The notes under the pieces were generated by a model. That model was not told where the DNA came from, searched no databases, and saw nothing but the letters and a program-made list of their open reading frames with translations. The position numbers and the translations under genes were made by a program. Positions 17,104-22,726 of a DNA stretch of 64,000 nt are shown one piece after another (within the stretch, counting starts at the first letter, position 1; each line of letters opens with the position of its first letter). This DNA is from Ferruginibacter sp. (lineage in GTDB: Bacteria > Bacteroidota > Bacteroidia > Chitinophagales > Chitinophagaceae). Location of the stretch: positions 2,716,647 to 2,780,646 of the forward strand of contig JABFRP010000002.1 of NCBI GenBank assembly GCA_013141115.1, given 5' to 3'.

Positions 17104-17622
17104 CTATTTTATTGCGTGCAGCAGGTTTGGCATCTTTTCTATTAATTCCTTGAGGACGGCAAAAATATTTTCAATGTCTCTGCTATTACCTTTTACTTCC
17201 TTTTCAAATTTTGCAAGCTGTAATAAAATTTCTTTATGTGTGAGCGCATACGCTCTCAGCTTTACAAAAACTCTTACTACCCGGATATTTACTTGAATCG
17301 CCGTTTTACTGTTTAAAATGCATGACAGCATTGTTACGCCCTGCCCTGTAAAACAAAAAGGTGCCGCACCACCAAAATAACTTTTAGATGGTATCACATT
17401 TTGTGATACCATGCCATCGATCTCTTTACTTGTCATCCCAAACATAAAATCTTTAGGAAACCGTTCAATATTCCTTTTAACAGCCTGTTTCAGTACCCTG
17501 GTTTCGATGCCAAACAATTCTGCCAGGTCTCTGTCAAGCATTATCTTTTCGCCACGTACAACATAAATGCGGTTTAGTATTTTCTGCTCCATCACTAATG
17601 CCTGTAATTCTTTTTTAGCCAT
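17104..17622 (-). CDS. ORF6N domain protein
   Basis: The N-terminal ~90 residues match the ORF6N DNA-binding domain common in phage and mobile DNA: ILNRIYVVRGEKIMLDRDLAELFGIETRVLKQAVKRNIERFPKDFMF in content, then FGGAAPFCFTGQGVTMLSCIL. The C-terminal ~60 residues look like a coiled coil. Length is 172 aa. The gene lies between direct repeats and close to two palindromes that could be its own operators (17631-17645 and 17665-17685), with a third inside the coding region (17390-17410). It was probably acquired. ORF6N proteins are thought to act as regulators; that role here is inferred. Confidence 0.85.
   Translation of the reverse strand: MAKKELQALVMEQKILNRIYVVRGEKIMLDRDLAELFGIETRVLKQAVKRNIERFPKDFMFGMTSKEIDGMVSQNVIPSKSYFGGAAPFCFTGQGVTMLSCILNSKTAIQVNIRVVRVFVKLRAYALTHKEILLQLAKFEKEVKGNSRDIENIFAVLKELIEKMPNLLHAIK
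17390..17410. promoter_or_regulatory. intragenic palindrome in the ORF6N gene
   Basis: Arms GGTATCACA and TGTGATACC (9 bp, perfect) around a TTT centre. The same left arm occurs in the upstream palindrome at 17665. Confidence 0.5.
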
Positions 17623-17914: not shown

Positions 17915-18001
17915 ATGTTTATGACTATTGAAGATATTGCCAACTTAGTGCCGGTTGAAGCCCCAAAGAAACGGGGAGCGTATAAAAAGAGAGCCGCTTA
18001 A
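17915..18001 (+). CDS. small basic ORF, 28 aa
   Basis: An ATG ORF encodes a 28-aa peptide ending in VEAPKKRGAYKKRAA. It is below the size limit of the ORF track. The stop codon lies in the loop region of a strong intrinsic terminator, which suggests a discrete transcript. The basic tail could bind nucleic acid. It may also be the 3' remnant of a longer gene. I do not recognise it. Confidence 0.35.
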   Translation: MFMTIEDIANLVPVEAPKKRGAYKKRAA

Positions 18002-18016
18002 TTGCGGCTTTTTTAT
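17992..18016 (+). terminator. intrinsic terminator after the 28-aa ORF
   Basis: AGCCGC/GCGGCT with a TTAATT loop, followed by six T residues. Confidence 0.82.
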
Positions 18017-18123: not shown

Positions 18124-18840
18124 ATGAGTTATAGCACGAATTTCCTTAGTCAAGTAATATTTCAGGCAAACTTTCAGATAGCTTCTTTAGATAATGGCAT
18201 CCACCCAATATTAGCAGCTTTATGTAAAGAGAAGACCGGTGTTGATGTTACAAAGCAAAACAATAGAGCAATCAATATTTTACCTACTGGCGGAGCAGAG
18301 ACAAAATTGCATTCAAGATGGACTTTTCTTGGTAAGAAATTGCATATAGTTATTCAAAGCGATTTGCTACAAGTAATAACGCTTAAGTATACATCTTACG
18401 AGGACTACCATCCGATTATAAGTGATATTTTTAACAAGGTCAAAGAAATATACAACCCGATAGTTACAAGAATTGCGTTAAGGTATGTTAATAATATTTC
18501 GTTTGAAGATGGCAGTACATTTGAATTTGAGACCCTAATTAAACCAGTTCTTTTAAACGCCACATTAGAATATAAAGACTTTGGATTAACCCGTTCTATT
18601 GGGGTAATGAATATGTTCAATAGCACAGAAAACATAAATACAAATTTTACCTATGGATTTGTAAACCCACAATTTCCAAGTAAAATAACAAAGCGTCATT
18701 TTGTATTAGATTTTGACTGCTCTATGAATCTTAATGTGGTAATAGATTCTATCAAACCCTTGTTATTGAAGTTAAGAGAACAAGTAAACACGTTATTTGA
18801 AAAATCAATATTGGAAGATTTAAGAACAAAAATGAAATAA
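18124..18840 (+). CDS. TIGR04255 family protein
   Basis: This 238-aa protein resembles the sporadically distributed TIGR04255 family; the motif VTRIALRYVNNISF in the middle is typical. The family's function is unknown, and its patchy occurrence suggests horizontal transfer. The gene opens a three-gene cassette with 1- and 3-bp gaps to the next two genes, so they are co-transcribed and probably translationally coupled. The cassette lies between the ORF6N repeat unit and fusA, an accessory location. Its lower GC than fusA is visible by eye. A toxin, defence or regulatory role is possible; nothing in the sequence proves one. Confidence 0.72.
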   Translation: MSYSTNFLSQVIFQANFQIASLDNGIHPILAALCKEKTGVDVTKQNNRAINILPTGGAETKLHSRWTFLGKKLHIVIQSDLLQVITLKYTSYEDYHPIISDIFNKVKEIYNPIVTRIALRYVNNISFEDGSTFEFETLIKPVLLNATLEYKDFGLTRSIGVMNMFNSTENINTNFTYGFVNPQFPSKITKRHFVLDFDCSMNLNVVIDSIKPLLLKLREQVNTLFEKSILEDLRTKMK

Positions 18841-18841
18841 C

Positions 18842-19051
18842 ATGGAAAATATAGTGACAGTAATTAATGAATTAAATGAGGCAATAGAAATAAAGATACA
18901 AGAGTATCTTATATCCGGCGATGCACAAAATGCTCCCAGTTTTGAGCCTCCAGTTTACTCCCCATTAGAGGAGGATTTTTCTATTTATTACCCTAAGCCT
19001 AAACCTTTTCAGAGGGTAATAGGTACTATTAATTATATTAAACAACCTTAA
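18842..19051 (+). CDS. small acidic hypothetical protein of the TIGR04255 cassette
   Basis: This 69-aa protein has an N-terminal helix (NIVTVINELNEAIEIKIQEYLI) and a Pro/Tyr/Glu-rich middle (FEPPVYSPLEEDF). There are no membrane segments. It starts 1 bp after the TIGR04255 stop. Its size and position would fit an adaptor or a binding partner of one of its neighbours. I do not recognise the family. Confidence 0.68.
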   Translation: MENIVTVINELNEAIEIKIQEYLISGDAQNAPSFEPPVYSPLEEDFSIYYPKPKPFQRVIGTINYIKQP

Positions 19052-19054
19052 TTT

Positions 19055-19621
19055 GTGCAAAGTCAAGTAGTAAATCAATACACAAAGACAAAGGATAAAA
19101 AAAGATTTAACCAGGGAGATATTTTAAAAGATATTTCCCTTTTCGTTTTAACTGGTAGTGGTGAATTACAGGTGTCTGAAATAAATTTAGAATATGCTAT
19201 TGTCGTAAGTCAGGATTGTGATTTAGAGCATGATTACAACAATAGAAATAACCCTGCAAAGAAGGATGAAGATAAATTTTTGCCTAATATTCTATTACTA
19301 CCCGCTTATTTAGCCACAAAATTCAGAACTGGAGAACATAGGGGTGATGAGATTAAAGGATTAACATGGGGTTCTGATAAGTGGAAATTAATTTCACAGA
19401 ACAATGAAGCAAGATTTCATTTCATAAGTCAAAGCGAAGATTATCAAATACCAGAATTAGTTTTAGATTTTAAACATTTATATACTATTGATAGGGATAT
19501 GCTATATAACAAAATGGGTAACGTTTATTTAGCTTCTATTTGCGAACTTTATAGAGAACTTTTATCTCAACGTTATTCTAATTTTTTAGGTAGAATTGGA
19601 TTACCCGAAATAAGTTCATAA
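19055..19621 (+). CDS. hypothetical protein with a VVSQDCDL motif
   Basis: This 188-aa protein begins with GTG, 3 bp after the preceding stop, so translation is probably coupled. Visible blocks are NQGDILKDISLFVL, YAIVVSQDCDLEHDY and LPNILLLPAYLA. The S-Q-D/T-C-D-L pattern recurs, from memory, in uncharacterised proteins of genomic islands; the conserved Cys and Asp residues could bind a metal or act in catalysis. There is no signal peptide or membrane helix. The function is unknown. Confidence 0.68.
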   Translation: MQSQVVNQYTKTKDKKRFNQGDILKDISLFVLTGSGELQVSEINLEYAIVVSQDCDLEHDYNNRNNPAKKDEDKFLPNILLLPAYLATKFRTGEHRGDEIKGLTWGSDKWKLISQNNEARFHFISQSEDYQIPELVLDFKHLYTIDRDMLYNKMGNVYLASICELYRELLSQRYSNFLGRIGLPEISS

Positions 19622-22357: not shown

Positions 22358-22726
22358 TTACAGGTTATTATTCTTCTTTGATGTTATAATACTCTTGGCA
22401 GTGATAGCTACCAGTTCTTCTGTTTCTTTATATACAGCATCCAGTTTTTTTGCCGGCTTTATCAATTCTTTTTTAATAATTACTTTTAATGCAGTTCTGC
22501 ATTCCTTTAATTCTTTTAAAATGATTCCCATTTTATGAACGAAATCTTTGGGAGATTCTGCAGCTTGTGCTTCGCCATAATTAAAAGTAGGAGAGTGGCA
22601 CGACCTGATCAATTGACCAGCAATATAATTTCCTGCTCTTGTATTAGGTAATGCCTCCACCACATCAATCATTCTGCAGGTATAATCCACCAACCTGTCT
22701 TCCAAGTCGAACTTTTTGTTTTGCAT
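22358..22726 (-). CDS. four-helix-bundle protein, S23/IVP type
   Basis: This 122-aa protein matches the four-helix-bundle (S23 ribosomal intervening-sequence) family: the start FDLEDRLVDYTCRMIDVVEALPNT, then IAGQLIRSCHSPTFNYGEAQAAES and ILKELKECRTALKVI. Such genes sit in rRNA intervening sequences or, as here, in intergenic repeats. Function is unknown. It is flanked by AT-rich TTCAATG repeats, so gene and repeats may have moved together. Confidence 0.9.
   Translation of the reverse strand: MQNKKFDLEDRLVDYTCRMIDVVEALPNTRAGNYIAGQLIRSCHSPTFNYGEAQAAESPKDFVHKMGIILKELKECRTALKVIIKKELIKPAKKLDAVYKETEELVAITAKSIITSKKNNNL

Follow-up and report, generated by a model that had tools for sequence, protein, structure and literature searches.

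A conserved three-gene unit headed by TIGR04255: a candidate modular toxin-antitoxin-like system with exchangeable parts

Within a 64,000-nucleotide stretch of Ferruginibacter sp. DNA (the window), three genes at positions 18124-19621 belong to a unit that keeps its gene order and tight coupling, is inherited together, is widely and sporadically distributed, and exchanges its first and third parts. We lean, if only slightly, towards reading the trio as a modular three-component toxin-antitoxin-like system in which the third protein (P3) would be the effector, the TIGR04255 protein a sensor or stabiliser, and the short middle protein an antitoxin or linker. Toxicity of P3, its neutralisation, a sensing step, and a use against phages or in plasmid maintenance are what we infer. 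The unit provides a testable, defined operon context for TIGR04255, a family named solely after its sporadic distribution. The literature searched (with subscription journals and bioRxiv outside its scope) contains no description of a fixed operon layout for TIGR04255 and no mention of TIGR04255, of DUF6941, or of IPR026349, which we take to be the InterPro number of TIGR04255.

The Three Genes and Their Surroundings

The first gene (18124-18840, + strand) encodes a 238-aa protein that shares full-length, above-cut-off membership with the sporadically distributed NCBIfam family TIGR04255, matching it over residues 3-238 with E = 4.7e-26 and 92 bits (the curated NCBIfam threshold is 30 bits). 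After a gap of 1 bp, the second gene (18842-19051, + strand) encodes an acidic protein of 69 aa with a pI of 4.4, and a further 3 bp separate it from the third gene (19055-19621, + strand), which starts at a GTG and encodes the 188-aa P3, carrying the motif VVSQDCDL. The first-pass annotation had described three tightly packed genes including a TIGR04255 member, and the reading frames, strands, gaps, and family match were all verified. Searches of Pfam, NCBIfam, and PADLOC gave no family match for the middle protein and none above cut-off for P3, PADLOC matched none of the three proteins to known defence models, and the PDB yielded no sequence relatives. An anti-sigma-F Fin match among the second and third proteins was discarded, its E value of 0.1-0.2 lying far under the cut-off.

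Directly 5' of the trio, at 17992-18009, lies an inverted repeat (AGCCGC-TTAATT-GCGGCT) between T runs, which is likely a terminator dividing the trio from the side of an ORF6N-domain gene. The latter (17104-17622, - strand; Pfam ORF6N E = 4e-28) stands outside the unit. The GC content of the trio is 31% against 37% for the window. The 8 other sampled genomes of the genus all lack TIGR04255, and at the level of the order 17 of 299 genomes have it. The region of the trio is therefore considered accessory, in keeping with the earlier description of accessory DNA beside an ORF6N gene. An empty-site comparison was tried through the neighbouring AlgH gene, which proved not to be syntenic across the genus.

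Three minor features of the surroundings may be recorded. The ORF6N gene has a PADLOC match, with E 1e-51, to the candidate defence family PDC-S05. A 26-codon ORF at 17921-18001 (+ strand), MTIEDIANLVPVEAPKKRGAYKKRAA, ends inside the bidirectional terminator-like stem and resembles a gene remnant. Further downstream, at 22358-22726 (- strand), is a gene for a protein of the 23S rRNA intervening-sequence type (Pfam E 3e-10).

Conservation and Co-inheritance of the Unit

An alignment of P3 relatives was scanned against one genome per species (GTDB contigs), which returned 173 relatives, and the best 80 of these were taken for analysis of their loci. These 80 come from Proteobacteria, Bacteroidota, Omnitrophota, Planctomycetota, Patescibacteria, Chloroflexi, and several archaeal groups. 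A match to the TIGR04255 profile lies upstream of P3 in 64 of the best 80 loci, and both junctions, TIGR04255 to middle gene and middle gene to P3, measure 30 nt or less in 53 of the 60 loci that could be assessed. The P3 loci that lack TIGR04255 are mainly at contig edges, are Chlorobi copies, or have a different first gene. Across 50 loci, distances between TIGR04255 proteins track those between P3 proteins (r = 0.90 for the two matrices, where the maximum of 2000 permutations was 0.16), and within a single subfamily of 32 loci the correlation is r = 0.76 against 0.28 in permutations. Taken together, the shared occurrence, the coupling, and the correlated distances strongly support the proposal that the three families co-occur as a fixed unit. 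Among the best 80 of the 173, the closest relatives of the window's P3 are archaeal and Patescibacteria copies, which suggests that the cassette may have moved as a whole between distant lineages.

In a plasmid collection, the one record with relatives of both outer genes is a plasmid of Methylocystis iwaonis. It carries the trio in identical order with overlapping genes, and an abortive infection gene of the AbiJ type and a recombinase gene lie close by. The P3 proteins of the two trios are 34% identical and the middle proteins 18% identical. No relatives were found in the phage records and E. coli genomes searched.

Conservation shows that the small middle ORF is a real gene: in 57 of the 60 assessable loci the gap between TIGR04255 and P3 contains an ORF, most often 54-153 aa long, and 105 of 2850 trials with shuffled gaps gave a comparable one. 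The middle protein is probably mostly disordered and ends in a C-terminal Y..KP..R.. strand. Among its counterparts in relatives, a C-terminal Y..K..R..strand motif is shared and is preceded by a variable stretch in which disorder-promoting residues abound, and the fraction of such residues is 0.67 in middle proteins against 0.59 in P3.

Predicted Folds of P3 and the TIGR04255 Protein

An AlphaFold2 model of P3 made from 67 sequences (pLDDT 92.2, pTM 0.86) predicts a MazF-like fold. When this model was compared with the PDB by Foldseek, the top 36 matches were all MazF-type toxins with a probability of 1.00. The best E was 1.5e-4, and TM by target reached about 0.69. Further MazF, CptN, and CcdB entries followed, with probabilities of 0.91-1.00 overall. 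In the viral library BFVD, the sole confident fold match is the PemK/MazF toxin of a phage record, again with a probability of 1.00. Over the MazF matches of the two libraries, TM by target is about 0.55-0.69. The order of elements in P3 also agrees with MazF, running from a GDI strand through a second strand ending in SQDC, an LLLP strand, and the VLDF and YTID strands to a final helix. The likeness to MazEF and PemK-Kid lies in the predicted fold and element order and in a small partner gene directly upstream. The differences are these: P3 has 188 aa against about 115 aa for MazF, its unit has one more conserved gene (TIGR04255), and there is no match at the sequence level, as Pfam finds no PF02452 (PemK_toxin) in P3 and the profile-profile probability is 1.9%.

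P3 also has invariants of its own. In the alignment of relatives, Q53, C55, D56 (forming Q-x-C-D), F139, R180, and P184 are invariant, and G21, D22, D138, R167, and E168 are nearly so. The catalytic Arg and Thr of MazF, at what we presume to be their positions, seem to be out of register, falling in a low-confidence alignment on E46 and Y85 of P3, neither of which is conserved. Judged by sequence, both catalytic residues appear to be absent. With a MazF-like fold predicted but no sequence signal and a separate set of invariants, P3 is therefore best called a predicted MazF-fold protein and not a demonstrated MazF ribonuclease. The AlphaFold2 model of the TIGR04255 protein (pLDDT 95, pTM 0.89) shows weak similarity to the AdoMetDC-like fold, with E 2e-5 and a TM of about 0.33.

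These features could also be accommodated by a regulatory or metabolic complex without toxicity, with the SH3-like barrel of P3 serving as a scaffold or as an RNA- or protein-binding domain. The apparent absence of the MazF catalytic residues, the weak AdoMetDC-like matches of TIGR04255, and the occurrence of P3-like domains behind receiver domains as an output module are all compatible with such a role, but sporadic spread, fast divergence, and partner swaps typify conflict systems and not housekeeping, and we regard it as quite improbable.

A Possible Mechanism and Its Relation to Known Systems

In the toxin-antitoxin-like reading that we prefer, P3 would be a MazF/CcdB-fold effector that harms the cell when unbound. 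The short and largely disordered middle protein would wrap P3, its conserved C-terminal strand bridging P3 to TIGR04255, the constant sensor or stabiliser. An invader or a stress might then displace TIGR04255, which would lead to loss of the middle protein and so set P3 free. The first-pass annotation had raised a toxin-antitoxin module as one option, to which the predicted fold of P3 and the Xre-like HTH middle genes found elsewhere lend indirect support. Most toxin-antitoxin operons differ in gene order from the trio, where the putative sensor gene comes first.

The logic proposed here resembles that of the TAC systems, where a constant partner shields the antitoxin until an invader displaces that partner. 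In CmdTAC, the antitoxin is protected by such a constant partner, which the invader displaces (PMC11618068), and in Mycobacterium tuberculosis HigBA-SecB a C-terminal chaperone-addiction sequence, ChAD, destabilises the antitoxin (PMC5105189). The trio shares with these systems the three genes and the pairing of a constant partner with varied effectors (PMC5105189, PMC11618068). Its middle protein is antitoxin-like, with a short conserved C-terminal segment that is comparable in logic to ChAD, although here only a motif is seen. The SecB feature of TAC finds no counterpart in TIGR04255 by profile or fold search: the SecB profile scores a probability of 0.1% against TIGR04255 in hhalign, and SecB is not among the 50 best fold matches of the TIGR04255 model. 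A SecB-like chaperone identity was dropped, as neither search gives a signal. We know of no chaperone activity in TIGR04255 proteins.

Exchange of Parts and Genomic Neighbours

About 40 other TIGR04255 loci were compared, taken from plasmids and from the class and the order. Where a TIGR04255 gene is detectable, a middle gene on the same strand follows it immediately in nearly all cases. Some of these middle genes encode an HTH like that of Xre antitoxins, mostly under Pfam cut-offs. The third genes make up at least 8 unrelated sequence groups, with distant P3 proteins among them (L004 and L021), and several of the alternatives are not recognisable as toxins. Unrelated third genes behind TIGR04255 are to be expected if the third position is an effector slot. 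The claim of a fixed unit is upheld with one amendment: TIGR04255 is not bound to P3, and P3 also occurs behind other first genes. Exchange of the first and third parts around a short, variable linker would be typical of conflict systems. It is possible, if doubtful, that three-gene immune systems of a large and so far undescribed class have TIGR04255 as their common sensor, which a disordered adaptor would couple to many exchangeable effectors. The one here would be a MazF-fold effector whose active site is new (Q-x-C-D, D-F, R) and replaces the ribonuclease site. The toxin-antitoxin-like reading predicts a new branch of MazF-fold effectors under the control of two partners, and if it is true, the third-gene swaps behind TIGR04255 would point the way to several toxins or immune effectors, bacterial and archaeal, that are so far unknown.

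Third genes that appeared by eye to be PIN-like (L007) and HEPN-like (L005) were not counted as evidence because Pfam and PDB searches gave them no support. Uncharacterised third-gene families recur behind TIGR04255 with the motifs HxPxxxNYWHF and LSVD, at L125, L127, L128, L132, and L134 and at L006, L019, L121, L124, and L130. At the ends of Firmicutes-type prophages, behind the lysis genes, genes for DUF6941, a disordered-looking protein, and P3 are consecutive (L038 4058-5525; L039 4003-5564; L040 3999-5570). A further arrangement, found at L034 (1004-3094) and L035 (39-2231), is an operon that encodes a histidine-kinase-like ATPase, a fusion of a receiver domain with a P3-like domain, and a Vsr endonuclease.

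Within two genes of 62 loci are found resolvases, integrases, restriction-modification and other defence-type matches, and also housekeeping enzymes, with no single family common among them. The nearest neighbours also include recombinases, AbiJ, and candidate defence genes. This mixed neighbourhood does not establish the defence role that the first-pass annotation had also raised. An anti-phage abortive infection system is an unlikely but respectable alternative. In it, TIGR04255 would bind a product of the phage, the middle protein would pass the signal on, and P3 would be an activated effector free of addiction and not a toxin restrained by an antitoxin. It would account for the exchangeable effectors and sensors (receiver fusions included), the sporadic occurrence on plasmids and prophages, and the AbiJ, ThiF/multiubiquitin, cas6, and VapBC genes beside some loci, yet many neighbours are housekeeping genes and no activation domain was seen. 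Location on plasmids and in prophages, together with the lack of TIGR04255 in the other sampled genomes of the genus, is what a mobile-element maintenance or superinfection module would show, that is, a selfish addiction unit without benefit to the host. Many loci lie on contigs with no obvious element nearby, however, and simple addiction needs fewer than three parts, so we hold this to be very improbable.

On a Rhizobium plasmid, a TIGR04255 operon is immediately preceded by genes for multiubiquitin, ThiF, and DUF6527 (L139 1177-3474).
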